IMG/VR virus record: IMGVR_UViG_3300028008_001363
Location: 1 to 64,000 of that record
Length of the DNA stretch: 64,000 nucleotides
Origin: a virus
Direction: 5' to 3' (one strand)
The position numbers and the translations under genes were made by a program. Every line of letters starts with the position of its first letter. Positions within the stretch are counted from its first letter, which is position 1. The notes below the pieces were generated by a model. That model saw nothing but the letters and a program-made list of their open reading frames with translations. It was not told the DNA's origin and ran no database searches. Shown here one piece after another: positions 5,322 through 58,629 of this stretch.

Positions 5322-5352
5322 AATTACATAATTAACAAAAAGGAATAGAACC

Positions 5353-5562
5353 ATGGGTATGTCAAGTTACATTTTCGATAACGTAGATAAGTTCTGGGAC
5401 ATTGCAGAGGAAGTTGCCTCTAGGAATGAGACAGGCGAAATCAAAATAGATTTTGATGAATTTAGAAATCAAATGCTAAAACATGCTGACCTATTATCTG
5501 GTTCAGATTTAAGTGATGATGTTGAAGAAGCAATATATCAAGCATGGTCAGACAACCTTTAA
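5353..5562 (+). CDS. Hypothetical acidic protein, 69 aa
   Basis: First gene after a strong early-type promoter, with AAAAGGA upstream of the ATG. A small acidic helical protein with no recognised family. Phage early genes of this size often encode host-takeover factors, but nothing specific supports that here. Confidence 0.65.
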   Translation: MGMSSYIFDNVDKFWDIAEEVASRNETGEIKIDFDEFRNQMLKHADLLSGSDLSDDVEEAIYQAWSDNL

Positions 5563-5568
5563 GATACT

Positions 5569-5733
5569 ATGAAAAGAAAAAAGAAGGTACATTTCTTGTA
5601 TCATATAAAGGACGTAGGCTTTAAGATGCTAACTGAATCACAAGCAAGAAAGTATAAAGATAAACATGGCGATGTTATATGGAATGTTCATACAACATTA
5701 GATATTTTACCCGAATTACTACCGGAGACTTAA
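5569..5733 (+). CDS. Hypothetical basic protein, 54 aa
   Basis: An ATG at 5569 opens a 54-codon frame that fills the gap exactly up to the ligase start at 5734. It begins MKRKKKVHFLYHIKDVGF and ends PELLPET. It is strongly basic at the N-terminus. There is no good ribosome binding site, so coupling to the upstream gene is likely. Function unknown. Confidence 0.55.
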   Translation: MKRKKKVHFLYHIKDVGFKMLTESQARKYKDKHGDVIWNVHTTLDILPELLPET

Positions 5734-6852
5734 ATGGATAATATTACGACATTAGATGCATTATACAAACGTGACTCAAAAGGTAAACTTAGAGTTTGGG
5801 AAGTACAATGGGGCTATACTGGTGATGTTGCTGGTACAAGAACTATTAGTGGACTTGTAGATGGCAAGAAAGTTGAATCAGGTTGGAATATCAGTGAAGC
5901 AAAGAATGTAGGTCGTGCAAACGCAACTACATCTATCACTCAAGCAGAAGCAGAGGCTAAATCTCAGTGGGATATTAAAGCAGAGAAAGAATACTTTAAA
6001 GACCCTAAAGATGTAGACACTTATGACAAGTTTAAGCCGATGTTAGCACACGACTACACAAAAACTAAAGTTCCTGTAACTGAGGGTTGGGTTCAGCCTA
6101 AACTTGATGGTATTCGTTGTATCGTAAACAAGAATGGTATGTGGACTAGAAGTGGTAAAGCAATTACAAGTTGCCCACATATTTGGGAGTCTTTGCAAGG
6201 TTTCATGGAGCAAAATCCACATTACATCTTAGATGGTGAATTATACAACCACGAACTAAAAGCAGATTTCAACAAAATCATTTCACTTGTGCGTAAAGTT
6301 AAGAGTACACCTAGTGATATTGAAGAAGCCGCAAGTCTTGTGCAGTATCACGTTTATGATATGTGTGATACATCTGCACCAGAAATGACTTTTGTTAATC
6401 GTATCAAACAAGCCTATTGGGCTAAGAACGATTATGTTCACATAGTAACAACTGATTTTTGTGAAACACAGGATGAACTTGATGAACTATACAGTGATTA
6501 TATGACAAACGGTTATGAAGGACAAATGGTTCGTCAGAATAGTCCATATGAAAATAAACGTAGTAAGTCTTTACTAAAGCGTAAAGAGTTTATTACAGAA
6601 GAATATGATGTTGTAAGTGTAGAAGAAGGCCAAGGTAATTGGGCTGGTTATGCCAAACGATTTGTATTGAAACTGCCAAATGGTGCAGAGTTCGGTGCTG
6701 GTGTTAGAGGCAATCAAGCACAGTTAGAAGAACTCTGGAATTCAGACACAAAACCTACTTGGGCAACATTGCGTTATTTTGAAATGACACCAGACGGTGT
6801 TCCAAGATTTCCAGTAGTCATTGATTATGGCACTGGTGTAAGAGAAGATTAA
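5734..6852 (+). CDS. ATP-dependent DNA ligase
   Basis: 372 aa. Nucleotidyltransferase motifs are in order: motif I KLDGIR with the adenylated lysine at K123, RSGK following, motif III LDGELYNHE, motif IIIa YHVYDM, motif IV EGQMVR and motif V LLKRKEF. A C-terminal OB-fold follows. The first 85 residues (RVWEVQWGYTGD...) resemble a WGR domain, an unusual N-terminal addition for a phage ligase. It seals nicks during replication and repair. It starts right after the preceding stop with GGAG nearby. Confidence 0.9.
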   Translation: MDNITTLDALYKRDSKGKLRVWEVQWGYTGDVAGTRTISGLVDGKKVESGWNISEAKNVGRANATTSITQAEAEAKSQWDIKAEKEYFKDPKDVDTYDKFKPMLAHDYTKTKVPVTEGWVQPKLDGIRCIVNKNGMWTRSGKAITSCPHIWESLQGFMEQNPHYILDGELYNHELKADFNKIISLVRKVKSTPSDIEEAASLVQYHVYDMCDTSAPEMTFVNRIKQAYWAKNDYVHIVTTDFCETQDELDELYSDYMTNGYEGQMVRQNSPYENKRSKSLLKRKEFITEEYDVVSVEEGQGNWAGYAKRFVLKLPNGAEFGAGVRGNQAQLEELWNSDTKPTWATLRYFEMTPDGVPRFPVVIDYGTGVRED

Positions 6853-6872
6853 TTTAACAGAAAGAAGTTTTA

Positions 6873-7163
6873 ATGACAAGTTTTATAATTGACTGGTATA
6901 ATGTAATAATGGATAGTGAAAAGAATCCACTATCTAACATCAAAGATTTAAGAGTACGCCATATGGTGATGCAAATATTAGCATGGATGTGGTGTATTGT
7001 ATTCACTGCTATGACAGGTACTTGGATGTATCTAGGTGCTAACATACTATTACATACATTACTATTAGGTGCTGTATGTATAACAGTAGCAACATTCGAA
7101 GCCGCTAAACGCAAACCACAAATATTCTATACATTGCGTGGTGATGGTGGTGAACATGAATAA
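6873..7163 (+). CDS. Small membrane protein, two predicted TM helices
   Basis: 96 aa. Hydrophobic segments lie around residues 32-52 (MVMQILAWMWCIVFTAMTGTW) and 55-75. The N-terminal segment ending DLRVRHMVMQILAWMW is a pattern I associate with T4-like marine phages, without known function. A shorter start at 6909 is possible. It overlaps the next small gene by 8 nt. Confidence 0.6.
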   Translation: MTSFIIDWYNVIMDSEKNPLSNIKDLRVRHMVMQILAWMWCIVFTAMTGTWMYLGANILLHTLLLGAVCITVATFEAAKRKPQIFYTLRGDGGEHE

Positions 7164-7266
7164 AGTATTCTTTGCAATTATTGTTGGACTTTTACTAGCA
7201 ATAGGCTTTAATCAACCGAATGAATACAGTTCAACCACAGATGAAAGTTTTGAAACAACTGAGTAA
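7156..7266 (+). CDS. Single-pass or secreted micropeptide, 36 aa
   Basis: An ATG at 7156 with GGTGGTG upstream opens a 36-codon frame. MNKVFFAIIVGLLLAIGF forms an N-terminal hydrophobic helix, followed by an acidic, Ser/Thr-rich tail. It overlaps the preceding gene and fills the gap to 7279. It could be a signal-anchored envelope peptide; function unknown. Confidence 0.5.
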   Translation: MNKVFFAIIVGLLLAIGFNQPNEYSSTTDESFETTE

Positions 7267-7278
7267 GGGAGTATTCAG

Positions 7279-7716
7279 GTGAGTATGCATTTATTAGGTC
7301 CTGGCATGACTACAACTAACTACAAAAAGAGAAAAAAGAAACCTCTTTCTGTAGCAAAAGAAAATCAACTTAAGATTGATTGGAAAAAGTACAATAAAGA
7401 TTGTCGTAGGAAAAATATGCATGCCGCCCAGTTCGATACTTTTGATGATTATCGTAAATATGTTCGTGGTGAGTACAAAGCACCAAAGCAACGTCCAAAC
7501 CCACTAAATAACTATCAAGCACCTAAAGTGCGTGAAACACAGGATTATCCAAGTTTGAGTAATACAATTTCTGCTCCTGCTGGTAAAAAAGAACCAATGA
7601 AATATACAGGTGAAAGAAAACTACTTGGTATTGCTACGATGCATAAGAGTAATATGGTTCCTGTGTTTGAAGACCAAAAAGAACAAGCAGTAGAAATAGC
7701 ACAAATGAGGCGCTAG
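7279..7716 (+). CDS. Hypothetical basic protein, 145 aa
   Basis: GTG start preceded by AAGGGAG. The N-terminal third is very basic (NYKKRKKKPLS). The centre is rich in Pro, Asn and Gln and probably unstructured, and the C-terminus is helical. No family recognised. Confidence 0.65.
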   Translation: MSMHLLGPGMTTTNYKKRKKKPLSVAKENQLKIDWKKYNKDCRRKNMHAAQFDTFDDYRKYVRGEYKAPKQRPNPLNNYQAPKVRETQDYPSLSNTISAPAGKKEPMKYTGERKLLGIATMHKSNMVPVFEDQKEQAVEIAQMRR

Positions 7717-8334
7717 ATGAACTTTAAAGATATATTATGGATGCCAATCGACCTTCCTGTCTTTGACATGAAAGATGAATTAGTGAATGACTTTAGCGTA
7801 GACTTTGTTGCAGACGCTAAAGATTATGATGTTCGTGGTCAACTATTTTTAGAACACTCTAATAATTATTCAATATCTAAAGTGAAAGAGGGTTTAACAA
7901 ACTCTCAAAATCACTTGATAGATTATTGCAAAACAAATTTACCATTTACTGACTTAGTTAACATCAAAATTCATCATATCAAAACTACAGGAATGAAGTT
8001 ACATATAGATTTTGGTGACCCAGAAAAGAACTTAGAACTATTCAAACACACAAATGAGCATGAGCCTTGTGGTTTTAGAATGATTGTAAAGGGAACTAAA
8101 TCCGGCGATATGGTAGTTAGCACTAATGATAAAATCATTGTTCCTACAATGCCAGATGAAACAGATTGGTATGCTCTTAATTACACCGAAGGTTTACACG
8201 GTTCAAATCCAGCATCAACTGATATAGATGATAGATATGTTCTATTCTGTATGGGATGGATAGATAAAGATAAACACAAAGAACTTATAAATCGCAGTAT
8301 TGACAAGTATAGCGATTTTATCGTAAAAAATTAA
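7717..8334 (+). CDS. 2OG-Fe(II) oxygenase-like protein (beta-hydroxylase-like)
   Basis: 205 aa. KLHIDFGDPEKN gives the HxD part of the iron-binding triad, GFRMIVKGTKSGDMVV resembles the central double-stranded beta-helix strands, and YTEGLHGS supplies a distal His. This spacing fits the aspartyl/asparaginyl beta-hydroxylase type of 2-oxoglutarate dioxygenases, common in T4-like marine phages. The arginine that binds 2-oxoglutarate is not certain. The substrate is unknown. Confidence 0.45.
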   Translation: MNFKDILWMPIDLPVFDMKDELVNDFSVDFVADAKDYDVRGQLFLEHSNNYSISKVKEGLTNSQNHLIDYCKTNLPFTDLVNIKIHHIKTTGMKLHIDFGDPEKNLELFKHTNEHEPCGFRMIVKGTKSGDMVVSTNDKIIVPTMPDETDWYALNYTEGLHGSNPASTDIDDRYVLFCMGWIDKDKHKELINRSIDKYSDFIVKN

Positions 8335-8370
8335 AGATTTTACCTAATATTAGCATCATATTTTAACATC

Positions 8371-8508
8371 CTCATAAATATTTTTTGAGAACTTATGAGT
8401 TTAAAAAATTAATGTAGCAACCTTCTCATTACGAGGTGCCAATGTACAGGGCAATAGCAAAGAGAGGACTACTAATCAGTTATACGAGGGTCGCTACCTC
8501 GAACTGTA
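8371..8508 (+). ncRNA. Structured intergenic element
   Basis: The 258-base gap between 8334 and 8593 has no gene. It contains a hairpin CTCATAA/TTATGAG (8371-8399). A compact GC-richer block follows with CGAGG/CCTCG (8485-8501), TACAG/CTGTA (8445-8508) and an alternative pairing GTAGC/GCTAC (8414-8497). The competing stems suggest a switchable RNA. No known riboswitch class recognised. Confidence 0.35.
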
Positions 8509-8527
8509 AAATTAATTAATAAAAGAC

Positions 8528-8556
8528 TTGTATATGTCTGTTAGATGGTGTATAAT
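8528..8556 (+). promoter_or_regulatory. Sigma70-like promoter for mazG
   Basis: TTGTAT (8528-8533), 17-bp spacer, TATAAT (8551-8556). The -35 is weaker than elsewhere in the window. Confidence 0.65.
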
Positions 8557-8592
8557 AAAAAGATATTAATACAACATTAGAAGGATATATCC

Positions 8593-9006
8593 ATGTCGAA
8601 CAAAGTAAATCTCCAGTCATATCAAAATTTCGTCCAAGCAGTGACTAGTGACGAAGCAAATGAACTCACCCCTTTTATTAATCGTTTAAACGAACTATCT
8701 GAAACTACTGGATGTAATATTCCATTATTCTTAAATAGTGCGATTGGCATGGCAGCCGAAGGTGGGGAATTTGCAGAAATCCCAAAGAAAGTATGTTTTC
8801 AAGGTAAGCCACTAGATGAAGACACTATCTTTCATGCGAAAAGGGAACTCGGTGATATTATTTGGTATTGGATGAATGCATGTCGTTCACTGAACTTAGA
8901 CCCTAATGAAGTAATCGCAGAAAATGTAAATAAATTAGAATCACGTTATCCTGGTGGTTCATTTGATGTTCATTATAGTGAAAATAGACAAGACGGCGAT
9001 TTATAA
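8593..9006 (+). CDS. mazG: MazG-like nucleotide pyrophosphohydrolase
   Basis: 137 aa. The all-alpha NTP-PPase signature is visible as AAEGGEFAEIPKK and, about 30 residues later, ELGDIIWYWMNA, giving the E-x-x-E...E-x-x-D metal ligands. NVNKLESRYPGG closes the domain. MazG proteins hydrolyse (d)NTPs. Phage versions have been proposed to tune host nucleotide pools or ppGpp. It has its own early-type promoter. A MESH1-like ppGpp hydrolase is encoded at 63.2 kb. Confidence 0.8.
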   Translation: MSNKVNLQSYQNFVQAVTSDEANELTPFINRLNELSETTGCNIPLFLNSAIGMAAEGGEFAEIPKKVCFQGKPLDEDTIFHAKRELGDIIWYWMNACRSLNLDPNEVIAENVNKLESRYPGGSFDVHYSENRQDGDL

Positions 9007-9009
9007 ATA
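9002..9009 (+). promoter_or_regulatory. T4-type late promoter box (TATAAATA)
   Basis: Exact TATAAATA ending five bases before the ATG at 9015, overlapping the mazG stop. If used, the mRNA would begin at or near the start codon. The sequence ATAAATACTATTATG is identical to that at 40800. Confidence 0.5.
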
Positions 9010-9014
9010 CTATT

Positions 9015-9275
9015 ATGTTTGAAATAGACGATTACGATAAATTATCAGAAGAAGAACTGGATGAGAAAATCCAAGATGTTCTAAAGAAAGTGGACATGGC
9101 GTATTCAATGGGTAATAACGAAGTTATGAACCAACTACTTTTTCATTTAGATAATTTAAAAATGGCATTAGGTGACAAACTTGAAAAGCAAAGATATGAT
9201 GCAATTTCAGGTAAGTTGCCAGAGCAATTCAGTATAACTGATGATGAATTAGACGAGGACCCAGAAAAGAAATAA
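9015..9275 (+). CDS. Hypothetical acidic helical protein, 86 aa
   Basis: A helical, acidic protein (KLSEEELDEKIQDVLKKVDMAY...). No Shine-Dalgarno: the late box TATAAATA sits five bases before the ATG. The stop overlaps the next start (TAATGG). Function unknown. Its late-promoter setting hints at a virion or assembly role. Confidence 0.65.
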   Translation: MFEIDDYDKLSEEELDEKIQDVLKKVDMAYSMGNNEVMNQLLFHLDNLKMALGDKLEKQRYDAISGKLPEQFSITDDELDEDPEKK

Positions 9276-13367: not shown

Positions 13368-13532
13368 ATGAATGATTTAATCAGAGATATCGAAATCCTA
13401 GAAAGTGCAATTATTGCCTTTACTGAAGGTGCAAGTGATGAAAAACGGATGTCGTTAAATTCACTTGAGGGTTTAATTGCTGAAAAGAAAAGTATTATCA
13501 AAAGTTTTGAAGATACTTATAACGAAGAATAA
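13368..13532 (+). CDS. Hypothetical helical protein between tRNAs, 54 aa
   Basis: AAGGAG upstream of an ATG at 13368 opens a 54-codon frame starting MNDLIRDIEILESAI and ending FEDTYNEE. Its stop codon abuts tRNA-Ser, whose first base is 13533. Probably a short helical hairpin; function unknown. Confidence 0.65.
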   Translation: MNDLIRDIEILESAIIAFTEGASDEKRMSLNSLEGLIAEKKSIIKSFEDTYNEE

Positions 13533-13622
13533 GGAAGATTGGCTGAGTGGTCGAAAGCACCGGTTTACTAAACCGACGAAGAGGCAACTCTTCCTAGGGT
13601 TCGAATCCCTAATCTTCCGCCA
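13533..13622 (+). tRNA. tRNA-Ser with unusual ACU anticodon
   Basis: Acceptor GGAAGAT/ATCTTCC, class II variable arm GAAGAG-GCAA-CTCTTC, T-arm AGGG-TTCGAAT-CCCT, discriminator G and encoded CCA. The anticodon loop is TTACTAA, giving ACT. Bacterial tRNAs for AGT/AGC normally carry GCT, so A34 is remarkable. The base pair 27-43 is a C-A mismatch. Confidence 0.85.
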
Positions 13623-13624
13623 AG

Positions 13625-13848
13625 GACCCGTTGGGTGGCGCCCAACTAGTATGCCGTTGGTGAGGCATATGAAGATGAAACTGTATCGCTACGGTAAATA
13701 AAATCACCCGATGCAAGTATGCCGGCAAGTGTTTGTCGTTAGTGTGAGTGAGGTGGAGCGTGTTGCTGAAATATTGCAACGTCAGTCACAAGGAAGAATT
13801 CCCTTGATTGACTTGAAAGCCTTGAAACCTACCACACATACACTCTAA
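13625..13848 (+). ncRNA. Large unassigned structured RNA within the tRNA cluster
   Basis: About 230 bases between tRNA-Ser and tRNA-Arg hold no convincing gene but several stems: TTGGG/CCCAA (13631-13645), TATGCC/GGCATA (13650-13669) and GTTGC/GCAAC in the 13760-13780 area. A CAAGG/CCTTG hairpin lies near 13789-13805. A long-range imperfect stem joins 13742-13756 with 13828-13845 and closes the second half as one domain. It lies in a tRNA transcript and could be a stable phage RNA. No tmRNA or RNase P signature seen. Confidence 0.5.
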
Positions 13849-16097: not shown

Positions 16098-16577
16098 ATG
16101 ATATTAGGTAAAATAAAATTGGTAATCATTATGGCCGCTATTACAGGAGTAGTAGGATTTGGTGCATGGAAATATTATCAATATACACAAGAGCAAATTG
16201 GCATCTATAGAGAAAATGCCGCTAAAGCAGAATTGGCACAGCAAGCCTCAGAAGCGGCTGTTAAGGCTATACAAAAAGACTTAGTAGAAGTACAGGCACA
16301 ATATACTAGAGTGTCAGATGATTTTAAAGTTGCAAGTTCGAGGGTAAACAAATTAGAATCTAAACTAAGTGAACATGAACTTGGAGACTTGGCACAAGCA
16401 AAACCAAAATTAATTGAAAGAATAGTTGACAAAGGTACCAAAGATGTGTTAAGATGTTATGAGATACTAACTGGTTCACCACTAACTGAGAAAGAAATTG
16501 CGGTGACAAAGAAGTCACAAGCGAACACAACTTGTTCAGATGTGGCAAATCCTAATTATACGGGGCCAAGACCATGA
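16098..16577 (+). CDS. Putative i-spanin (Rz-like)
   Basis: 159 aa. N-terminal transmembrane helix (residues 7-24), then a long charged coiled coil (about residues 30-100), then a short C-terminal region with RCYEILTGSPLTEKEI. This is the layout of inner-membrane spanins, which join an outer-membrane lipoprotein to disrupt the outer membrane at lysis. The stop overlaps the following lipoprotein gene (ATGA), the classical Rz/Rz1-type adjacency. Confidence 0.65.
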   Translation: MILGKIKLVIIMAAITGVVGFGAWKYYQYTQEQIGIYRENAAKAELAQQASEAAVKAIQKDLVEVQAQYTRVSDDFKVASSRVNKLESKLSEHELGDLAQAKPKLIERIVDKGTKDVLRCYEILTGSPLTEKEIAVTKKSQANTTCSDVANPNYTGPRP

Positions 16578-17026
16578 TTAAAGAAACATTATTAGCAGGA
16601 ACACTAGCAGTAGTACTAAGTGGATGTTCTGCTACACTACCAAAAAAAGTTGATTACTCAGCAGAACCAGTAGAACGTCCATTACTTGTTTTGCCAGAAT
16701 CTGAAATAGCGAATATGAAAGAAGTAGATTATCTCGTGGTTACAGAAGAAAACATTGATGAAGTTTGGAGAGAATTAGAAGCGTCTGGTAAACCTGTTGT
16801 ATTATTTGCACTTACACACGAAGGTTATGAAGCGTTATCATTAAACAATGCTGAAGTGATTAGATACCTTTCTGAACAAAAAGCAATTCTTATTGCATAT
16901 AAAGAATATTACGAAAAAGCCGACAAGGCAATCGAAGATGCGAATGTTATTTCTGAGGCAGAACAGGCACTTGATTCAAAGCCAAGTTCACTCTCAAAGA
17001 TAAAATCATTCCTTAAATCAGATTAA
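16574..17026 (+). CDS. Lipoprotein, candidate o-spanin partner
   Basis: 150 aa with a bacterial lipoprotein signal: a hydrophobic stretch ending in the lipobox LSGCSA (Cys at about 18). The mature part is helical and acidic with a periplasmic YLVVTEENIDEVWRELE segment. It overlaps the i-spanin-like gene by 4 nt. It is longer than most o-spanins, so a different envelope role remains possible. Confidence 0.6.
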   Translation: MIKETLLAGTLAVVLSGCSATLPKKVDYSAEPVERPLLVLPESEIANMKEVDYLVVTEENIDEVWRELEASGKPVVLFALTHEGYEALSLNNAEVIRYLSEQKAILIAYKEYYEKADKAIEDANVISEAEQALDSKPSSLSKIKSFLKSD

Positions 17027-28002: not shown

Positions 28003-28542
28003 ATGTCAGGAACAAAAAGATTATATAATTTAGATGAAAAGAACTATTTCAAGTTCTTTGGTATTGAAGAAAAGCAAGGAACTAGTATCCGAAGCCTTTC
28101 TACGCACTACAAAAAGATTCTAAACTTATTAAAAGACGATAATTCATTTATCGGGAGAGACCACAAAGAGTTCGCACACCGAGCCTTTAATACATTGGTC
28201 GACCCAATCTTACGTGCAAGATACATTTTAGAAACCAATGGTCACGAATGGGATTTTAGAGACGGTACAACACCAGAAGACTTGAGTTTTATTTCTGATT
28301 TGAGAGTTCAACTTACTAGAGCAAACTTACAATATGAACTTGAGAATTTCATTTTTGAACTGAAAGGACATACTAACTTTATCATAGAACAGATTGAAGA
28401 AAGTATTGATGTTTACAGTAATTATAAAACAGCCATTGGGCTGATTAATCGATTTTACGAGATATCTCATCTACATGAAGAGGCATCAGGTAAAAAATAC
28501 GAAGTAGAACAAGGAATACACCACGGTGTGTTCGACCACTAG
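28003..28542 (+). CDS. HscB-like protein lacking HPD
   Basis: 179 aa, the HscB size. NYFKFFGI corresponds to the start of the HscB J-domain and FNTLVDPILRARYILETNG is very close to its conserved A-x-x-TL-x-x-P-x-x-RA-x-YLL-x-x-G block. The helical C-terminal domain (VQLTRANLQYELENF...) is as expected. The HPD motif that activates HscA/DnaK is replaced by LLKDDN, so it may keep the scaffold-binding domain but not stimulate Hsp70. HscB normally brings IscU to HscA for Fe-S transfer. The next gene is an A-type Fe-S carrier, which strengthens the call. Confidence 0.7.
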   Translation: MSGTKRLYNLDEKNYFKFFGIEEKQGTSIRSLSTHYKKILNLLKDDNSFIGRDHKEFAHRAFNTLVDPILRARYILETNGHEWDFRDGTTPEDLSFISDLRVQLTRANLQYELENFIFELKGHTNFIIEQIEESIDVYSNYKTAIGLINRFYEISHLHEEASGKKYEVEQGIHHGVFDH

Positions 28543-28554
28543 AGAGGAAGTAAA

Positions 28555-28875
28555 ATGATTTTTACAGAGAATGCGGCTGAACGTGTTAAGGAAATTATTG
28601 CAGAAGACCAAGAAGAAGTACAAGCACTTAGAGTATTTGTACAAGGTGGTGGATGCCACGGTTTTAGTTATGGATTTGGTTTTGAAAATGATATCGCAGA
28701 TGATGATACTGTTATTGAAACCAGTGAAGTGAAATTAGTAGTTGATAGCATGAGCATCATGTATCTTTCAGAAGCAACTATTGATTTTGTTAGAAGCCTA
28801 GAAGGCGAACGTTTTACAATCGACAACCCATCAGCAAGAACATCTTGTGGGTGTGGTTCAAGTTTTTCAGCATAG
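28555..28875 (+). CDS. A-type iron-sulfur carrier (IscA/ErpA-like)
   Basis: 106 aa. The three ligand cysteines are in place: C34 in GGGCHGFSYGF and C98/C100 in TSCGCGSSF, matching IscA and ErpA spacing. The family receives Fe-S clusters or iron and passes them to apo-proteins. An AGAGAGGAAG ribosome binding site follows the HscB-like gene. Likely clients encoded here are the radical SAM protein at 39.6 kb or host enzymes. Confidence 0.9.
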   Translation: MIFTENAAERVKEIIAEDQEEVQALRVFVQGGGCHGFSYGFGFENDIADDDTVIETSEVKLVVDSMSIMYLSEATIDFVRSLEGERFTIDNPSARTSCGCGSSFSA

Positions 28876-28882
28876 GAGTAAC

Positions 28883-29119
28883 ATGTCAATTGAACAAGAA
28901 ATAATGGAAGTCGTAGCGAAGCGATTAAAGTGGAATGAAAACGACTTGTCATTAGAATCAAATCTGAAAGAAGATTTAAAAGCAGATAGCATCGATTCAG
29001 TAGAGGTGCTATTTGAAATCGAAGAAATGTACGACATTGTAATAGAAGACGAACTGGCAGAAGACATTAATACTGTTGGTGACATCGTAAATGTTGTAAA
29101 TTCACTACAAAATACATAA
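28883..29119 (+). CDS. acpP: Acyl carrier protein
   Basis: 78 aa from the ATG at 28883, which has AGGAG upstream. Four-helix ACP with the phosphopantetheine serine S36 in ADSIDSVEV, at the same position as in E. coli AcpP, and an acidic recognition helix II (VLFEIEEMYDI). It carries acyl chains for fatty acid or polyketide synthesis after host phosphopantetheinylation. It closes an Fe-S operon. A ketosynthase and acyl-activating enzyme are encoded at 57-62 kb. Confidence 0.93.
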   Translation: MSIEQEIMEVVAKRLKWNENDLSLESNLKEDLKADSIDSVEVLFEIEEMYDIVIEDELAEDINTVGDIVNVVNSLQNT

Positions 29120-29156: not shown

Positions 29157-29186
29157 TTGACTTTTGTATAAATAACATGTTATAAT
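29157..29186 (+). promoter_or_regulatory. Sigma70-like promoter of the porin-like gene
   Basis: TTGACT (29157-29162), 18-bp spacer, TATAAT (29181-29186). A late box lies inside the spacer. Confidence 0.75.
29167..29174 (+). promoter_or_regulatory. T4-type late promoter box (TATAAATA)
   Basis: Exact TATAAATA within the spacer of the sigma70-like promoter, so the same gene may be expressed early and late. Confidence 0.55.
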
Positions 29187-29209
29187 TAATAATATTGATT
29201 GAGGTTATC

Positions 29210-29248
29210 ATGCTTAAGGGCGTGGTATACTCGGTTTATTGTTTATGA
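29210..29248 (+). CDS. Possible 12-aa leader peptide
   Basis: GAGG then ATG at 29210 opens MLKGVVYSVYCL followed by TGA. The stop codon lies in the left arm of a TATGAGA/TCTCATA hairpin (29244-29265). The arrangement resembles a regulatory upstream frame in the 110-base leader of the porin-like gene. Confidence 0.35.
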   Translation: MLKGVVYSVYCL

Positions 29249-29312
29249 GAAAGATTCCTCTCATACAAAAAAGGAATCAAACTAATGTATTTCAAATAAC
29301 TATAGGAGAATT

Positions 29313-30140
29313 ATGAATACTTTATTGAGAACCGCAATTGTGGGTACGGCATTGTTAGCAACGCCATTCGCCGCATTTGCCGAAGCAGAAGCAGAAACGC
29401 AATCAGGCGTCTCAGTTTCTGGTACATACGAAGGTACTGCTACCGATTCGGGTACATACACACAAGAACTTGAAGTTGTGGTTGGTATGAACTCTGAGGC
29501 TGGTTCAGTTACAGCGAAAGTTGATGAAACTGGAACTGTAGGTGATTTGTACCTTGACACATCAATTTCTTCAATTGACCTTAGACTTGGTAAAGTAGAT
29601 GGTGAAATGGGAATGAAAGCGTCTACTACAGTCGCTGGTGTCACAGTTTCAGCATACAGCCCATCTGGCGCAGGAAAATCTACAGAGATTGGCGCTAGTA
29701 CAGATATTGGTCCGTTAAGCATTGCAGGTGAAGACATCTTAGATTCAGATAGACTTCTAAGTGCAGGCATGAACGTAGCAGGAGTTGACTTAGGTGGTTC
29801 ATACCAAAAGACAGCAACTGGCACTAACCAAATCATGGACGCTGGTTTAGACATCATGGATGTTACAGTATCAGTAGCAAACGCATCAATCGGTGATGCA
29901 AGTGTTACTAAAACTGGTGATAACAAACATGCAGTGTTAGGTACAATGACAGGTGCTACAAACGGCACAGATGTTAGAGGTATCAAACTTGCCTATGGTG
30001 ACCTTTCTGTAAAAGTAGTTGAACTAAATGCTACTAACACATATACTGCCGCTTTAGAGCGTGGTATTATGACGTATCAATATGAAAAAATTGAAAACGG
30101 TGCAGACGAGGTTTCAGTTGGAGTTAAGTTTACTTTCTAA
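29313..30140 (+). CDS. Porin-like outer-membrane beta-barrel protein
   Basis: 275 aa with a clear signal peptide (basic start, hydrophobic core TAIVGTALLATPFAAFA, cut near AFA-EAE). The mature part is made of alternating amphipathic strands (SVSGTYEG, SVTAKVDE, IKLAYGDLSVKVVEL) and ends in VGVKFTF with the terminal Phe used for outer-membrane insertion. The strand pattern resembles small general porins. It forms a monocistronic unit: strong promoter(s), structured leader, perfect terminator. It could change host permeability or mask receptors against superinfection; both are inference. Confidence 0.7.
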   Translation: MNTLLRTAIVGTALLATPFAAFAEAEAETQSGVSVSGTYEGTATDSGTYTQELEVVVGMNSEAGSVTAKVDETGTVGDLYLDTSISSIDLRLGKVDGEMGMKASTTVAGVTVSAYSPSGAGKSTEIGASTDIGPLSIAGEDILDSDRLLSAGMNVAGVDLGGSYQKTATGTNQIMDAGLDIMDVTVSVANASIGDASVTKTGDNKHAVLGTMTGATNGTDVRGIKLAYGDLSVKVVELNATNTYTAALERGIMTYQYEKIENGADEVSVGVKFTF

Positions 30141-30170
30141 TGTTTATTATTTAAACAGTAATGAAACTAT

Positions 30171-30198
30171 AAAGCCCGTCTTAATGACGGGCTTTTTT
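30171..30198 (+). terminator. Rho-independent terminator after the porin-like gene
   Basis: Ten-bp stem AAAGCCCGTC/GACGGGCTTT with a TTAAT loop and a run of T. Confidence 0.92.
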
Positions 30199-30213
30199 GT
30201 TTGGCGTTAATTA

Positions 30214-30221
30214 GATAAATA
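30214..30221 (+). promoter_or_regulatory. T4-type late promoter box (GATAAATA)
   Basis: GATAAATAC after the porin terminator, 40 bases before the channel gene at 30262. Confidence 0.7.
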
Positions 30222-30261
30222 CTTGTTAGACAAATACAAAAGCACAATGGGAGAGTAAACC

Positions 30262-30702
30262 ATGACTAAATCATTTTTACAATGGTGGCTATTTTTCGTC
30301 CTTCAATTAATAATTCTAGGCGCAGGATATACCTACGACTTACACACATACATATTAAACAATGACCAAACGTATATCAGTTTCGTTTTACTTGGTATCT
30401 GGTTACTTACGAGTGTTAGAATTGGTTATAAGATGGGTAGAAATATAAAATCATCGAATGAAAAGTTTTGGTTCATTGCCGAAACTTGTATGGCAATTGG
30501 TATGATGGGAACAGTTTTAGGTTTCATCTTAATGCTAGGTGGTTCAAATCTCGAATCTATAGACCCAACTGATGTAGAAGGTATGAAAAACGTAATCGGT
30601 CAATTAGCAAAAGGTATGGCAACTGCATTATTAACAACTCTAACAGGATTAATTGTTTCAGTTTCTTTAAGAACGCAATTAATGATTGGAGAGGGTGAAT
30701 AA
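30262..30702 (+). CDS. MotA/TolQ/ExbB-family proton channel protein
   Basis: 146 aa with three hydrophobic segments (about residues 9-25, 39-55, 75-95) and a fourth near 115-133. The block MGMMGTVLGFI followed by MATALLTTLTGLIVS is the core signature of ExbB/TolQ/MotA channels, which couple proton flow to work in the periplasm. It is shorter than ExbB (about 240 aa) and lacks a large cytoplasmic loop. The next gene has the matching ExbD/TolR-like single-TM layout. Confidence 0.75.
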   Translation: MTKSFLQWWLFFVLQLIILGAGYTYDLHTYILNNDQTYISFVLLGIWLLTSVRIGYKMGRNIKSSNEKFWFIAETCMAIGMMGTVLGFILMLGGSNLESIDPTDVEGMKNVIGQLAKGMATALLTTLTGLIVSVSLRTQLMIGEGE

Positions 30703-31341
30703 ATGTCTAACCGATACGGTTCTAACCTATCGTTCAATGATGTATTGTTTAACGCACTTTTAGGTTTTGTAGTTTTATTCGTATTAGCACTTCTGCTAAT
30801 CAATCCAATTACAAAGAAATCAGATATTCCAGCAAAAGCAGAGATTCTCATTACATTAGAATGGGATGATGAAGTAGGTGATGATATAGATATCTGGGTA
30901 CAAGGTCCAACAGGCGTACCAATATCTTTTCAAAACAAAACAAATGGAGTTATGCACCTAGATAGAGATGATTTAGGCAAAACATCAGACTATATGTGGA
31001 TAGATGGCGAAAGAATAATTATAAAGTTGAATCGTGAGGTTGTAAGTATGCGTGGCATAGCACCAGGTGATTACTATATCAACATACATGTGTATAGTAA
31101 GAACAGTAAAACTGGCCCAACTAAATATACATTGACACTACTAGATGTTAACCCTTATAGAGAGGTTTATGTTATGCAAGGCAAGTTGAATAAACGAGGT
31201 GAAATAGTTAGACTTCCAGGTTTTACACTAGATGAAGAAGGTGTAGTAACTGATGTTTGGACAAGTGACAAGATTGTAGTGGGTGCTAAAAACAGAACGC
31301 TTATAAGTGATGTTTCTGGAACAAACGAGGATGGCAACTAA
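30703..31341 (+). CDS. ExbD/TolR-like single-pass periplasmic partner
   Basis: 212 aa. SFNDVLFNALLGFVVLFVLALLLINP gives one transmembrane helix near residues 9-34 that carries the Asn/Asp expected in ExbD/MotB-type plugs. A beta-rich periplasmic domain (LEWDDEVGDDIDIWVQGP...GDYYINIHVYSK) follows, unlike ExbD and similar to pre-peptidase beta-sandwich domains. Directly abuts the channel gene. Pairing with it is inferred from adjacency and topology. Confidence 0.55.
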   Translation: MSNRYGSNLSFNDVLFNALLGFVVLFVLALLLINPITKKSDIPAKAEILITLEWDDEVGDDIDIWVQGPTGVPISFQNKTNGVMHLDRDDLGKTSDYMWIDGERIIIKLNREVVSMRGIAPGDYYINIHVYSKNSKTGPTKYTLTLLDVNPYREVYVMQGKLNKRGEIVRLPGFTLDEEGVVTDVWTSDKIVVGAKNRTLISDVSGTNEDGN

Positions 31342-31352
31342 GGAGATTATGG

Positions 31353-31967
31353 ATGTTTTGGACTGAATTCACTGTTGATACGTTAATTTTATTATATGTA
31401 CTAGGATTATTTGCACTAATTTTGGTATGTTTATATGCATTAATTCAAAGCAAAGCAAACAAACTATACACTTTCATTATTATTCCATTAGCACTTATAA
31501 TGGCAAGTATGACTTGGCAAGGTATTAAAGTTTTACAAGGTATGCCAGTTTATGGATTACCAGAAAAAGAAGTAGAAGTTATGTGGGTAAACGACAATAA
31601 GCCATGGATATACGTTATATTGAAGAAAGATGGAGTTCCAGTTTTATATAAAATTGATTGGACTGAAGAGAATAAAAAGAAGATGAAAGAATTAGAGAAA
31701 ATGATTGGTTCATCTATGGCTCAAGGAAAGTTTGAAGAGACAAAATCAAACAGCGGTGAATCAAATTCGTATGTGTTCACTCCTATGATGGACTTGACTG
31801 AACCTGAAGAGAAACGCCAAGACGGTGACGGTGTGGAATACACACCTGCACAAAGTATTAATACTAGTCCTAACAGACCTAGTTTAGAAACTGTTGTTGA
31901 TGGCGAAGCAGTGATATTATCACCAACAGTTTATGGTCCATTGACAGCAGAACAATCAGGACCTTAA
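31353..31967 (+). CDS. Membrane protein, two TM helices plus soluble domain
   Basis: 204 aa. Hydrophobic segments at about residues 10-31 and 40-56, then a soluble domain with strands (KEVEVMWVNDNKPWIYVILKK) and a disordered, Pro/Ser-rich tail. No family recognised. Third gene of the late envelope operon. Confidence 0.6.
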   Translation: MFWTEFTVDTLILLYVLGLFALILVCLYALIQSKANKLYTFIIIPLALIMASMTWQGIKVLQGMPVYGLPEKEVEVMWVNDNKPWIYVILKKDGVPVLYKIDWTEENKKKMKELEKMIGSSMAQGKFEETKSNSGESNSYVFTPMMDLTEPEEKRQDGDGVEYTPAQSINTSPNRPSLETVVDGEAVILSPTVYGPLTAEQSGP

Positions 31968-31982
31968 TAGAGGAGAGAGAAA

Positions 31983-32252
31983 ATGGAAGGTATAGGAGCA
32001 GTATTAGTAATAGGACATTTTGTAATATCGATATTTAATGTACCACTAGGCAATCCAGTTATTTACTCGTTGCCCTTTTCAGATATGAAAACATGTGAGC
32101 AATATGCAGAGTATTTGCCACCAGAGCCGATTAAACTAAACATAGAGTGGAATCATTCAACTAAAAGTCAATGTATGACCACTGGTCAATTTAAAAAGAT
32201 GATGGAAGCAAGGGGAGTTCAAAAGCCAGCAACAGGCACACCTGAGAAATAA
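31983..32252 (+). CDS. Small exported protein, 89 aa
   Basis: GAGGAGAG ribosome binding site. A hydrophobic N-terminus (GAVLVIGHFVISIFNVPLG) probably serves as signal or anchor. Two cysteines, in KTCEQY and SQCMTT, could form a periplasmic disulfide. Function unknown. Confidence 0.55.
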   Translation: MEGIGAVLVIGHFVISIFNVPLGNPVIYSLPFSDMKTCEQYAEYLPPEPIKLNIEWNHSTKSQCMTTGQFKKMMEARGVQKPATGTPEK

Positions 32253-32260
32253 GGATTATT

Positions 32261-33109
32261 ATGAGAAAACTATTAGATTACATAAAAGAGTCATTCATTG
32301 GAAGAACAATACGTTGGATATTTAAAAATCCTTACTTTGTTGTAGTCATAGTTTTACTTGGGGTAGTAGGACAAGACAAAGGCGTTCAGTGGTACAATGA
32401 TTACATGGTATTATACGAAGAAGCAAATAACAAAATTGAAGAAGAAGAGAATACAGGCGGCTTAGAATTAACAAAGATTGATGATGCGTTATACACGTTA
32501 ATAGGTACAGTAAAAGAAGGTGACTGTGGCAAGATTGCAAAAGAAATGCCAGACGAAGGCTGGTTTACTGTAATATTAGAAAGTCCAGGTGGCAATCTCG
32601 CAGATGGTTCTTGTCTTGCGGCACATATGAAACTTCGTAATGTTGTTACTGTTGTTAGAAGTACACCAGTTATGAATGAACTTGGCGAAATGATTTATAC
32701 ACCAGGAACAAACGTTGACGAAAATACACCAGACTTTATGAAAGGTAAATCAGTTTGTGCATCAGCATGTGGTTTGATGTTCTTAGCAGGTGATAAACGA
32801 TATCTAATGGGTGATGTTTACTTTGGTATTCATGGTCCAGGAACACCACCAGGTAGTATGAATGGTGCAAATCCTGCGGCTATAGAAAGTTCTGCATTTA
32901 GAACAGCATCATCATTGTTACAGTTGTTGAAATCTTTAGGTGTTGAAGACGAAGGTTTAAGAATGTTATTCATTCAAATTCCAAACGCAACAATGTATTG
33001 GTTGCATCCACGAGACTTTGAAGTTAAGCCAGGACTAGTTAGAATAGCAACAGACTATAGAGATTTCTTTGGCACTACAGGCAGTGACCCAGAAGGTGGC
33101 ATGAGATGA
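32261..33109 (+). CDS. ClpP/crotonase-fold membrane protease-like protein
   Basis: 282 aa. One TM helix (about residues 24-40), a short acidic coil, then a ClpP-type fold: VILESPGGNLADG (oxyanion SPGGN), CASACGLMFLAG with the candidate nucleophile serine, and FGIHGPG with a His. This matches periplasmic ClpP-like proteins with a CxSAC motif. It probably cleaves or gates an envelope substrate. Fifth gene of the channel operon; its stop overlaps the next ATG. Confidence 0.65.
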   Translation: MRKLLDYIKESFIGRTIRWIFKNPYFVVVIVLLGVVGQDKGVQWYNDYMVLYEEANNKIEEEENTGGLELTKIDDALYTLIGTVKEGDCGKIAKEMPDEGWFTVILESPGGNLADGSCLAAHMKLRNVVTVVRSTPVMNELGEMIYTPGTNVDENTPDFMKGKSVCASACGLMFLAGDKRYLMGDVYFGIHGPGTPPGSMNGANPAAIESSAFRTASSLLQLLKSLGVEDEGLRMLFIQIPNATMYWLHPRDFEVKPGLVRIATDYRDFFGTTGSDPEGGMR

Positions 33110-33180
33110 CTATAAAAGATAAGTTGATGATGGTATTTGTTACCATACTCGTTGCAGGATACATAGTCTATCTAAATTGA
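33106..33180 (+). CDS. 24-aa membrane micropeptide
   Basis: ATGA overlap with the preceding stop. MTIKDKLMMVFVTILVAGYI is a lysine-started hydrophobic helix, and the frame ends at 33180 in a late promoter box. Possible regulatory or lysis-related micropeptide; its reality rests on overlap and hydrophobicity only. Confidence 0.4.
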   Translation: MTIKDKLMMVFVTILVAGYIVYLN

Positions 33181-33186
33181 TAAATA
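33179..33186 (+). promoter_or_regulatory. T4-type late promoter box (GATAAATA)
   Basis: GATAAATAC 50 bases ahead of the transporter gene at 33236. Confidence 0.7.
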
Positions 33187-33235
33187 CAGTATACGATTAA
33201 ATTCGTATATAAATTTAATCAATTAGAGGTGACAT

Positions 33236-34282
33236 ATGTTAAAATCATTTTTTCTAACAAAGGAATACGGAGCATATGCATGGCTAATGTTAGCGTTTCT
33301 TTTGAGTTTGATTTGGTACAACGTAGAAATATTAGTTTTCTACAATAGTTGGAACAAAGAAATCTATGACGTAATTCAATCACTACAAGAAGAAAGATTC
33401 TGGGAACTGTTTCTGGGATGGGACGCTGGTAGATTTTTGAATTTCATTACTTTGACTGAGGGAGTACAACCATCCTTTGTTGAAATCATAGTCCTATATA
33501 CTCCAATCGCAGTATACGCCACATGGCAAACACAACGATACTGTTTTAGATGGCGAGAAGCAAACACTAAACACTATATGACACGTTGGGAAAACTCAAC
33601 AGCACAAATAGAAGGTGGCTCACAGCGTATACAAGAAGACTTAATGATTTTTGGTAAGACACTTCAAGGACTCTTCACTGGTTTCTTCAGTGCGATACTT
33701 ATTCTTTTTGCGTTTCTTCCAATTCTATGGAATCTATCAGAGAGTTTACCAGTTTGGAATGGACAAATCATTCCTGGTTTCTTAGTATGGGTAGCATTAT
33801 CTGTATCAATTGGTGGTACATTGATATCACTTCTATTAGGTTGGAAACTACCTAAACTTGAATATAACAATCAGGTAGTAGAAGCCAAGATGAGAAAGCA
33901 ACTAGTACATTCAGAAGATGACTTTAGTGCAAGAGCAACATCAACACTATTTCCAATGTTTTATTCAGTTCGTAGAAACTACTATAGACTATTCAACTGG
34001 TACATGGGATTTGGTGTATGGCAAACAGCATTCGGATTATGTGTAGGTAACTTAGCACTAGTTGTTTTAGCACCAGCATACTTTGACCAGTTAATTACAC
34101 TTGGTGTATTATTTCAAGTTCTAAACGCATTTGGTAGAGTTGAAAGTTCAATGGGTTATTTCATCGATAGATGGACAACAATCGTTGACTTCTTATCAGT
34201 CATTAGACGTTTGAGAGAATTTAACGTGGCACTTGACGAAGCAGACAGTGTTACTTTTGATGATGATGGAAATAGAATCTAA
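33236..34282 (+). CDS. SbmA/BacA-family peptide transporter
   Basis: 348 aa (family about 400). Multiple membrane helices. The conserved family block is IEGGSQRIQEDLMIF, followed by a second membrane region, LEYNNQVVEAKMRKQLVH and ending FGRVESSMGYFIDRWTTIVDFLSVIRRLREF. SbmA/BacA import peptides such as microcins, bleomycin and NCR peptides using proton flow. A phage copy might import a host-range or competition-related peptide, or alter the envelope. Own late promoter. Confidence 0.8.
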   Translation: MLKSFFLTKEYGAYAWLMLAFLLSLIWYNVEILVFYNSWNKEIYDVIQSLQEERFWELFLGWDAGRFLNFITLTEGVQPSFVEIIVLYTPIAVYATWQTQRYCFRWREANTKHYMTRWENSTAQIEGGSQRIQEDLMIFGKTLQGLFTGFFSAILILFAFLPILWNLSESLPVWNGQIIPGFLVWVALSVSIGGTLISLLLGWKLPKLEYNNQVVEAKMRKQLVHSEDDFSARATSTLFPMFYSVRRNYYRLFNWYMGFGVWQTAFGLCVGNLALVVLAPAYFDQLITLGVLFQVLNAFGRVESSMGYFIDRWTTIVDFLSVIRRLREFNVALDEADSVTFDDDGNRI

Positions 34283-34306
34283 TGTGTTCACAAGGAAAAG
34301 AAAGCA

Positions 34307-34612
34307 ATGTTGATGGGTAACAAAGCAGTTATAATCTGGAGATGGTCCGCATTGGTTGTGTACTTGACTATCTGTCTGTATGACTTTGTTCTCGTTCCTG
34401 TTTATATGTCAATGCAAGTTCCATACCTAGAAGTGTTTGTTGATATCATTAACAGATTGCCTGACGACCCATTAGTTAGATTAGATATGATGAAAATTAT
34501 GACTGGCACACACTCACCATATACATTGATGGGTGGTGGAATATTCCACTTGGCATTTGGTGCATTGCTAACAGGTACTGCAATGGGCATCAACAAAGAC
34601 GAAAAGAAGTAA
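34307..34612 (+). CDS. Putative holin-like membrane protein, 101 aa
   Basis: Three possible hydrophobic segments: IIWRWSALVVYLTICLYDF (about 8-26), VYMSMQVPYLEVFVDII and MGGGIFHLAFGALLTGTAMG (about 75-94). The WRW...YL.IC.YDFVL.P pattern is common to a group of phage holin-like proteins. Position after the transporter and a ribosome binding site AAGGAAAAG support expression. Which of the two holin-like candidates is the lysis timer cannot be decided. Confidence 0.45.
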   Translation: MLMGNKAVIIWRWSALVVYLTICLYDFVLVPVYMSMQVPYLEVFVDIINRLPDDPLVRLDMMKIMTGTHSPYTLMGGGIFHLAFGALLTGTAMGINKDEKK

Positions 34613-34699: not shown

Positions 34700-34933
34700 A
34701 TGAAATTCTTATACGTTGATGTTGACAATCGAAAGGTTGTTGGCTTATTCAGAAATAGCAACGAGGAAATTATAAAACTCAATATAAGAGAGTTACAGAT
34801 ATTAACACAGAAAGAGCGTTATATTCTTAATTCAAATATATTACCAGAGTTATTAGAGGCACTCAAGGCTATGGGTCAATATAAAAAAGCAAGGCGTCCT
34901 CGATGGATGAGATTATTTTGGTTTTTAAAATGA
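34700..34933 (+). CDS. Hypothetical basic protein, 77 aa
   Basis: AAGGAG upstream. MKFLYVDVDNRKVVGLFRN then helical, ending in a Trp/Arg-rich tail RPRWMRLFWFLK that may be membrane-associated. A loose late-like TTAAATAA lies upstream. Followed by a terminator. Function unknown. Confidence 0.6.
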   Translation: MKFLYVDVDNRKVVGLFRNSNEEIIKLNIRELQILTQKERYILNSNILPELLEALKAMGQYKKARRPRWMRLFWFLK

Positions 34934-34940
34934 CTTATTA

Positions 34941-34963
34941 ATCCCGCTTTATGCGGGATTTTT
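34941..34963 (+). terminator. Rho-independent terminator
   Basis: Stem ATCCCGC/GCGGGAT (34941-34947 and 34953-34959) followed by TTTTT. Confidence 0.9.
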
Positions 34964-57243: not shown

Positions 57244-58629
57244 ATGATATTTGAAACTATAAAAAACCAATCACAATTACATCGGCATAAAACCGCAGTA
57301 ATTTGTGGTGACAAAAAATATACCTACACTGAACTTATTGAGAGTGTAGAAAAACTGGCTGCCGTTATGTCTACTGCATTTCTTCCAGGTGACAGATTAT
57401 TATTTGCTAGTGGTAAAGAATATCATTATATTAGAATGGTATTAGCATGTGACATTCTCGGTGTAACATTCATGCCTACATTTCCAAATCTGCCAAAAGA
57501 TGTAGTAGATGGAATAGTAGAAGCAAGTTCACCAGACCATATTATACTAACTGAGGCTGATGCTTTAGCCTTAGAACCACATAACAAAGCACTGATATAT
57601 TCTAAGAAAACCGACCATACATACACAGTATTATTCACAAGTGGTACAACCGGTAAACCTAAAGCAGTTGCACATACGAGTGCAGGATGTTTGATGGCAT
57701 GTTTCAATAGTATTAGTGTGTATCAAATGAGTTCAAATGATGTAATACTATCTCAATTACCACCATCAACCGTAGGAGGTTTGTATCTATACGCACTTCC
57801 AGGACTAATTAAAGGTTGTACAGTTGTAATCGAACAGTTCAATCCTAGACGATTTGTAAAGTTATGTGAAGAATATAAACCAACAATAGGCATAATTGTT
57901 CCAGCAATGATACTTGCTATGCAGAATTTAAAGACATGGAATGAATTAGATATGTCTCATTGGAGAGAACTAAGTGTTGGTAGTACAATTATACCAGAAG
58001 AAATGTTAGACATTCTATTCAGTAAAGGTGTCCCTGCCATCAGAGATTTATATGGGTGTACGGAAACTCAAGTTCCAGCATTCACATTCTTAATTGAACC
58101 AGATACTGAACACAAATTACAACTTGAATGCAATGACCAATATGAATACAAATTAGATAGACATGACCAGTTATGGTTAAAAAGTCCTCTACTAATGAGC
58201 AACTATCTGAATGCAGATGCAGAACTAGACAGTGATGGTTTTTGGTGTACAGGTGATGTATTTGAACGCAAGTATAATAAACTATTTTACAAGTCTCGCA
58301 GAAAAGATTTAATGAAAATCAACAGTCATAATGTATCACCAATTGGTATAGAAAATGCTATATTAGTATTAGACGGTGTTGATGAAGTATGTGTAATATC
58401 TAAAGAACGAGGTTTAGGTGAAAAATATATCGTAGCAATTATAAGTAGTCAGGACCCACAGATAAATAAATCGTTAGTGATGAATTCTATAGAAAGCAAA
58501 CTCATGCCATATGAACTTCCTAAAGATATAATCGTTACTAAAGAAACTCTGCCTAGAAATCAGATGGGCAAAATACAGAGACATGTTATACAAGGCATCT
58601 ACGGAGAAGTCAATGAAGACCAAAGTTAA
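57244..58629 (+). CDS. Acyl-CoA synthetase / acyl-AMP ligase (ANL superfamily)
   Basis: 461 aa. ATP-binding P-loop TSGTTGKPK at residues 132-140, core DLYGCTETQ, hinge GDVFERKYNKLFYKSRRKDLMK, and NQMGKIQRHV with the C-terminal catalytic Lys. Activates a carboxylic acid as acyl-AMP and transfers it to CoA or to a carrier protein. Substrate unknown. No ribosome binding site: the ATG lies at the expected transcription start. First gene of an operon with a halogenase and ketosynthase, so it may load the phage ACP (28.9 kb). Confidence 0.9.
   Translation: MIFETIKNQSQLHRHKTAVICGDKKYTYTELIESVEKLAAVMSTAFLPGDRLLFASGKEYHYIRMVLACDILGVTFMPTFPNLPKDVVDGIVEASSPDHIILTEADALALEPHNKALIYSKKTDHTYTVLFTSGTTGKPKAVAHTSAGCLMACFNSISVYQMSSNDVILSQLPPSTVGGLYLYALPGLIKGCTVVIEQFNPRRFVKLCEEYKPTIGIIVPAMILAMQNLKTWNELDMSHWRELSVGSTIIPEEMLDILFSKGVPAIRDLYGCTETQVPAFTFLIEPDTEHKLQLECNDQYEYKLDRHDQLWLKSPLLMSNYLNADAELDSDGFWCTGDVFERKYNKLFYKSRRKDLMKINSHNVSPIGIENAILVLDGVDEVCVISKERGLGEKYIVAIISSQDPQINKSLVMNSIESKLMPYELPKDIIVTKETLPRNQMGKIQRHVIQGIYGEVNEDQS

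Follow-up and report, generated by a model that had tools for sequence, protein, structure and literature searches.

A conserved phage gene trio with motor-like architecture, found with a ClpP-like protein and an SbmA-like importer

The first 64,000 bases of a 99,856-base IMG/VR virus record (IMGVR_UViG_3300028008_001363, bases 1–64000; hereafter the window) contained a block of nine plausible genes between positions 29157 and 34960, every one on the plus strand. The conserved core of this block was mot–tmY–p204, an invariant three-gene set. It encodes a channel subunit (mot), a partner protein with one transmembrane helix (tmY), and a third protein with two predicted helices (p204). The core is very probably a phage-encoded relative of the ExbBD, TolQR, and MotAB motors; its architecture is motor-like and well supported, and its function is inferred. 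Conserved proton-path residues make it likely that the trio is actively coupled to protons. In the window, the trio was followed by a small protein (p89), a ClpP-like membrane protein (clp), and an SbmA/BacA-like transporter (sbmA). The initial annotation of this DNA had described the block as an energized trans-envelope device, which is a fair account of its anatomy, and had named the channel, its partner, the ClpP-like protein, and the transporter, all of which were borne out by the results below. It overlooked p204 as a conserved core component.

The conservation of the trio was followed in a set of related loci. A scan of IMG/VR viral contigs with a tmY profile gave 442 encoding stretches. 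The 80 best were retained, and the non-redundant set was composed of 83 groups, including a few chromosomal and cultured-phage loci. Because similarity to the window was the means of finding loci, and SbmA-bearing loci supplied most of the tmY profile, the co-occurrence figures are not population frequencies. Genes were called as the longest open frames, and most virus records were fragments. Of the 83 non-redundant groups, 82 had mot beside tmY and 79 had p204 there. The complete trio was found in 74 of the 80 best viral loci; for two of the six incomplete loci (L097 and L098), the contig carried mot at a separate locus (L002 and L004). The order was fixed and the genes almost touched, with median gaps of −3 and 0 bases. 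The three-gene set as such was not present in the libraries searched. The p204 product had no family match in Pfam, NCBIfam, and the other profile libraries searched; its topology was read from hydropathy and charge, with a C-terminal domain that is probably periplasmic.

The mot product matched the MotA_ExbB family (PF01618) with an E-value of 4e-9 and a score of 36.7 bits, above the curated cut-off of 22.9 bits, and the same model was matched at E-values up to 1 by all 29 members of the mot family. When the mot profile was compared with solved structures, the matches were weak, with an E-value of 0.004 at best (ZorA), and the family assignment was therefore taken from Pfam. The protein had a near-absent cytoplasmic domain, and its C-terminus came soon after the last predicted helix. 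Since almost no part of mot is cytoplasmic, its output is probably exerted in the membrane or the periplasm. Residues Thr84 and Thr126 of mot aligned with Thr148 and Thr181 of E. coli ExbB, respectively, by hhalign, and the corresponding positions of TolQ were also found. Each of the two threonines was retained in 80 of 81 non-redundant loci. Residues Thr148 and Thr181 of ExbB, together with Asp25 of ExbD, are essential, as reviewed in PMC12905483.

The single transmembrane helix of tmY began with Asp13, which was invariant in all 83 non-redundant loci. This residue aligned with Asp25 of ExbD and Asp23 of TolR; the alignments alone were weak (E ~0.04) and were placed on the invariant residue. 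All three residues of the ExbBD proton path thus had a counterpart in the trio, namely Asp13 of tmY and Thr84 and Thr126 of mot. Structures were modeled as single chains with AlphaFold2 (AF2). The model of tmY, with a predicted local distance difference test (pLDDT) value of 81.5, contained a periplasmic β-sandwich. Its nearest solved structures were TerD-like proteins (E 8.7e-4, template modeling (TM) score 0.41–0.49), and DUF4425-like proteins, and one of these fold neighbors was a calcium-bound structure. Pfam gave no ExbD/TolR-type match for the periplasmic domain, for which the model favors TerD-like folds, and the tmY profile found nothing convincing by sequence among solved structures. 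Residues Asp61, Asp63, Asp89, Asp90, and Glu112 of this domain were invariant in 83 of 83 loci. With five invariant acidic residues, a metal site in the periplasmic domain is a reasonable idea.

The ClpP-like character of clp was evident in its predicted fold. The AF2 model had a pLDDT of 84 and was matched to ClpP by Foldseek with an E-value of 7.6e-6 and a target TM score of ~0.64. At the sequence level no family was matched, and the clp profile gave unconvincing results against solved structures. Residues Ser168 and His191 were invariant and lay in motifs that match those of ClpP, and four cysteine residues were invariant as well. The domain probably faces the periplasm.

The sbmA product matched the SbmA_BacA family (PF05992) over its full length, with an E-value of 1.7e-76 and 258 bits against a cut-off of 24, and matched the structure of E. 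coli SbmA with an E-value of 3e-51. The closest NCBIfam model was a short "putative transporter" (PRK12369), which scored below its cut-off. Six ladder glutamates are listed in PMC13316013, where E. coli SbmA was impaired by the loss of ladder glutamates. In the SbmA of the window, four of these positions were Glu, the E378 position was Asp, and the E203 position was Gln, so that five of the six were acidic. The Gln at the E203 position was found in 23 of 27 SbmA representatives. Matches to SbmA were also seen in two records of Acinetobacter phage MD-2021a (CAKLQH020000002.1 and CAKLQF020000003.1); their neighbors yaaJ, threonine dehydratase, and pepO look chromosomal, and the phage label of these records may be wrong.

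The clp gene was present in 57 of the 64 SbmA-bearing viral loci, and 28 of these loci also had the motor pair in the fetched stretch. Two gene orders were found. Either the trio was followed by p89–clp–sbmA, as in the window, or clp–sbmA preceded the trio; in the latter order a soluble ClpP gene followed the trio (protease match of one member). Where the trio was not adjacent to clp–sbmA, three contigs had sufficient length to reveal it, and in each of these it lay ~31–48 kb upstream; the remaining five ended before or close to this distance. Furthermore, an SbmA of a second subfamily lay directly after p204 in other phages; its identity was 46% to E. coli SbmA and 39% to that of the window, and its ladder was full. 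Since both subfamilies adjoin trios, SbmA has been put beside the trio at least twice.

The block had been assigned to late promoters, and motifs of this type were seen for part of it. The late-promoter-like motif GATAAATAC was found before mot and sbmA (Table 1), and also precedes a virion gene at 14963, and position 35039. In the non-redundant loci, the core ATAAATA lay within 100 base pairs (bp) upstream of mot in 36 of 80 cases, compared with 147 of 1396 for other genes and 1 of 83 and 0 of 78 for the downstream trio genes. This placement upstream of mot would fit a T4-like late operon, as judged from the motif. The canonical TATAAATA and CTAAATA were also tried as the late motif and rejected, as both were below chance frequency in the window; GATAAATAC fits instead. 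The porin-like gene had a strong sigma70-like promoter motif of its own upstream and a terminator after it, and it was found only in the closest relatives. It was therefore rejected as a part of the device and is probably a separate transcription unit, so that the single block of the initial annotation did not hold at this end. Its product had no match in the family libraries searched, and a barrel is plausible from its sequence features. Conservation divided the block in a similar way: the trio, p89, clp, and sbmA were co-conserved, and narrow distribution was seen for the porin-like gene and for the small genes at 34307–34612 and 34700–34933. The 101-residue protein after sbmA has a holin-like look and was tried as a holin, with no profile support.

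Table 1. Features of the block and of the spanin locus in the window
Feature	Position	Strand	Basis
Rz/Rz1-like spanin genes, overlapping	16098–16577, 16574–17026		PHROG 739, 812
Sigma70-like promoter, TTGACT-18-TATAAT with TG before −10, upstream of porin-like gene	29157–29186	+	11/12 consensus, motif match
Porin-like secreted protein, 275 amino acids (aa)	29313–30140	+	Signal-like start, C-terminal Phe
Intrinsic terminator between porin-like gene and motor genes	30171–30195	+	10 bp stem, T run
Late-promoter-like motif GATAAATAC, 48 bp upstream of mot	30214–30222	+	Motif match
mot, MotA/TolQ/ExbB-type channel subunit, 146 aa	30262–30702	+	Pfam PF01618
tmY, ExbD/TolR-type partner, one helix then periplasmic β-sandwich	30703–31341	+	AF2, alignment, conservation
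p204, third trio protein, two predicted helices and C-terminal domain	31353–31967	+	Conservation
p89, small protein, one hydrophobic segment, two invariant Cys	31983–32252	+	Goes with clp and sbmA
clp, N-terminal membrane anchor and ClpP-fold domain, 282 aa	32261–33109	+	AF2, Foldseek
Late-promoter-like motif GATAAATAC, 57 bp upstream of sbmA	33179–33187	+	Motif match
sbmA, SbmA/BacA-like (SLiPT) transporter without N-terminal TM0 region	33236–34282	+	PF05992, structure match
Small membrane protein of 101 aa, narrowly distributed	34307–34612	+	Distribution in relatives
Small protein, 77 aa, mostly in close relatives	34700–34933	+	Distribution in relatives
Intrinsic terminator at block end	34940–34960	+	Terminator search

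Among the PHROG matches of the window were structural proteins of the virion and a tail fiber protein, and the viral DNA polymerase was closest to that of the Agrobacterium jumbo phage Atu_ph07, at 50% identity. The trio itself was carried by cultured Rhizobium phages of several unrelated kinds, among them P10VF, RHph_I46, RHph_N3_13, RHph_I1_18, and the temperate phage 16-3. Its genes are P10VF_191–193 in P10VF and p038, p040, and p042 in 16-3. A trypsin-like protease gene lay near the trio in 16-3 and RHph_N3_13. By profile search the trio was absent from T4, the pelagiphage HTVC008M, the Sinorhizobium phages phiM12 and Phosso, the Agrobacterium phage Atu_ph07, and the Pseudoalteromonas phage H101.

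Relatives of the trio were also found in bacterial chromosomes. A tmY relative was present in 55 of 385 sampled alphaproteobacterial genomes (~14%), and some of these are probably prophages. In two marine alphaproteobacterial loci (L086, positions 610–9193, and L091) the trio lay beside genes of an ATP-binding cassette (ABC) system of pyrroloquinoline quinone (PQQ) alcohol dehydrogenases (TIGR03863, TIGR03866, TIGR03861, and an ABC ATPase) and beside a gene read from its sequence as a TonB-receptor-like protein. These neighbors match lutA-B-E-F-G-H of Methylorubrum in content and order, by family and order only; the lut gene list was taken from PMC7391723, the text of which names no trio gene as a lut gene. 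Proteins of TIGR03864 and TIGR03075 were also among the neighbors of chromosomal trios. Six further chromosomal loci had methanol/ethanol-type PQQ dehydrogenases nearby (three tested against NCBIfam), and several chromosomal trios had neither PQQ-dehydrogenase nor lut-like neighbors. Near the phage trios, the queries used found no PQQ-dehydrogenase or lut-type genes except for generic ABC ATPase matches. The chromosomal relatives raise a separate question, whether the trio might provide energy or handling in the uptake of lanthanides or PQQ, as an unrecognized module of such lut-like systems. In a tree of tmY, most marine phage sequences grouped together and 16-3 grouped with chromosomal sequences, and the deep branches were weak and long; this pattern indicates that the trio was probably captured more than once.

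Contigs that had been binned as Harrisonbacteria and Yanofskybacteria (L094 and L096) also carried the trio; these groups are commonly regarded as having no outer membrane. Either these contigs are mis-binned, or the basic job of the trio is independent of an outer membrane. A wide occurrence of the trio across the phylum to which the Harrisonbacteria genome belongs was considered and rejected, with only 1 of 380 sampled genomes carrying it.

Bacteria use proton-driven 5:2 motors to power nutrient uptake, division, motility, and defense against phages. Our tentative reading of the block, drawn from sequence and models, is that of a captured, probably late-expressed proton-driven envelope motor that in this virus may be coupled to the processing of peptides in the periplasm and to their import. 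The trio would probably be made late in infection. The mot subunits would form a ring-shaped channel with a tmY dimer inside, in a presumed 5:2 assembly. Proton flow through it would move the periplasmic β-sandwich of tmY, and p204 would transmit or anchor this movement. Meanwhile clp, which goes with p89, may act as a protease that cuts protein of the periplasm, or protein that comes in, to peptides, and SbmA could import these for late protein synthesis. Uptake, which was among the roles first proposed, or peptide salvage is a possible main purpose, put forward with somewhat greater reserve than the reading as a whole. It is favored by the repeated pairing of SbmA with the trio, in two subfamilies, and by the uptake-type, PQQ-dehydrogenase/lut-like neighbors in chromosomes. 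A stricter form is decidedly improbable. In it, marine phages would carry a so far undescribed type of motor, taken from bacterial chromosomes, which would deliver proteins or peptides of the periplasm by mechanical force to the ClpP-type protease and the SbmA-type importer and so salvage protein in a place where ATP is absent.

Several points weigh against a motor that serves peptide import. SbmA is driven by the proton gradient itself, and a motor is not needed for it. No TonB-like partner was recognized, and p204, which is conserved next to the pair, matched no family. In clp, only Ser168 and His191 of a Ser-His-Asp triad were recognized, and the Gln at the E203 position leaves the ladder of the window SbmA incomplete (cf. 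PMC13316013). The sample of loci was biased by searching from the window. Finally, 44 of the 83 trio groups had no clp, soluble ClpP, or sbmA gene nearby, and the neighbor genes of the trio were mixed. These groups indicate that the core job of the trio is independent of neighboring peptide-import genes and lies beyond them. If the favored reading is true, a compact motor standing in many marine phage genomes means that viruses install their own energized envelope machinery late in infection. Since the trio occurs in culturable phages (P10VF, RHph_I46, and 16-3), its job is open to direct testing.

Among the alternatives, an uptake linked to metal is unlikely. The trio would power the import of a metal or of a metal complex, with calcium or a lanthanide bound by the periplasmic domain of tmY, as its chromosomal counterparts next to PQQ-dehydrogenase and lut-like genes perhaps do. 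The five invariant acidic residues and the calcium-bound fold neighbor agree with this, as do the TIGR03866, TIGR03863, TIGR03861, TIGR03864, and TIGR03075 proteins beside chromosomal trios. However, the fold match is modest in TM score, and PQQ-dehydrogenase and lut-type genes were missing near phage trios with the queries used and near several chromosomal ones.

Lysis support, which the initial annotation had offered as one option, is kept here as a rival that is on balance improbable. A late proton channel might hold or collapse the membrane gradient, or perturb the envelope, and so set the timing of lysis. The late-type motif before mot, the retained proton-path residues, and the small membrane protein after sbmA are compatible with such a role, and an M15-type endolysin gene lay ~1 kb upstream of tmY in a few relatives. 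However, an M15 endolysin was close to the trio in only 3 of 119 loci, and the mixed neighbors of the trio included no fixed lysis cassette. In addition, a peptide importer and a protease are not parts of a lysis system, and the trio also exists in chromosomes. Lysis support was not favored because the spanin pair of the window phage sits elsewhere, at 16098–17026.

Superinfection exclusion or another action against competitors, in which the motor would, much as in Zorya, act at the inner membrane to sense or block phage DNA that enters or an import of the colicin type, appears quite unlikely. ZorA was the best match of mot both among solved structures and among defense models (PADLOC, E 7e-8), which gives some substance to the link with Zorya that had been drawn from its MotA-like channel. 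As a claim of membership this link failed. Neither Pfam nor PADLOC matched a ZorB-type peptidoglycan-binding domain in tmY, the fold of which differs, and PADLOC found no ZorC, ZorD, or ZorE among the other five block proteins scanned. With the ZorA tail also missing, membership in Zorya was rejected. Moreover, superinfection exclusion is usually expressed early, and expression of a late type would be unexpected for it. Interference with host motors is the least likely of these alternatives: the membership of mot in the channel family and its similarity to ExbB and TolQ in the channel core would suit a decoy that mixes with or blocks TolQR or ExbBD and so stops division or TonB-dependent receptors, but a dead decoy needs neither the essential proton-path residues nor the many conserved periplasmic positions of tmY, and complete three-gene sets occur in bacterial chromosomes.

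Other genes of the same record were noted alongside the block. Phage-borne iron–sulfur assembly genes lay at 28003–29119 of the window and at 13371–13697 and 14039–14413 of L196 (record bases 83001–99856). The set included an ErpA-like protein (NCBIfam, above cut-off), an HscB-like protein (below cut-off), and an acyl carrier protein (PHROG), and by the look of their sequences an IscU-like protein and a second A-type carrier. In record bases 64001–99856 (L195 and L196), about 10 frames with radical-SAM/SPASM-like cysteine motifs were seen by eye, mostly on the minus strand, as was a carbamoyltransferase-like gene. Window positions 57244–62047 held genes that look like those of an AMP-forming ligase, a tryptophan-halogenase-like flavoprotein, and a ketoacyl synthase. 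Flavoproteins like the latter flavoprotein were encoded shortly downstream of sbmA in two further loci (L108 and L118). The genes at 57244–62047 and the radical-SAM genes suggest a natural-product-like pathway.

When the open literature was searched, no relevant paper was found on phage-encoded SbmA or on phage ExbB/TolQ systems, with most subscription journals outside its coverage. The trio was therefore set beside the known bacterial systems. It resembles ExbBD and TolQR in the PF01618 channel subunit, in the aligned Asp and two Thr residues of the proton path, and in the adjacency of its genes. In contrast to these systems, it has a four-helix channel of 146 residues with almost no cytoplasmic domain and a TerD-like β-sandwich on the partner, it has no recognizable TonB or TolA, and its third protein belongs to no known family. 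ZorAB of Zorya shares the likeness of its channel subunit to mot, whereas mot, at its short length, lacks the long cytoplasmic tail of ZorA. The four predicted helices of the channel subunit and the single-helix partner with its Asp residue are shared with MotAB. However, only a short loop connects predicted helices 2 and 3 of mot, where MotA carries its torque-generating domain, and tmY has no match to an OmpA-like anchor. The SbmA of the window is like the SLiPT transporters in its full-length family match and mostly kept acidic ladder, and differs from them in the absence of TM0 and the Gln at the E203 position. The clp protein shares with ClpP its model fold and the invariant Ser and His residues in corresponding motifs, and is distinguished from it by a membrane anchor, a probably periplasmic location, four invariant cysteines, and no detectable sequence family. 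Finally, the lut clusters of methylotrophs have counterparts of lutA-B-E-F-G-H beside the trio in the two marine alphaproteobacterial loci, and the trio itself extends beyond such clusters.

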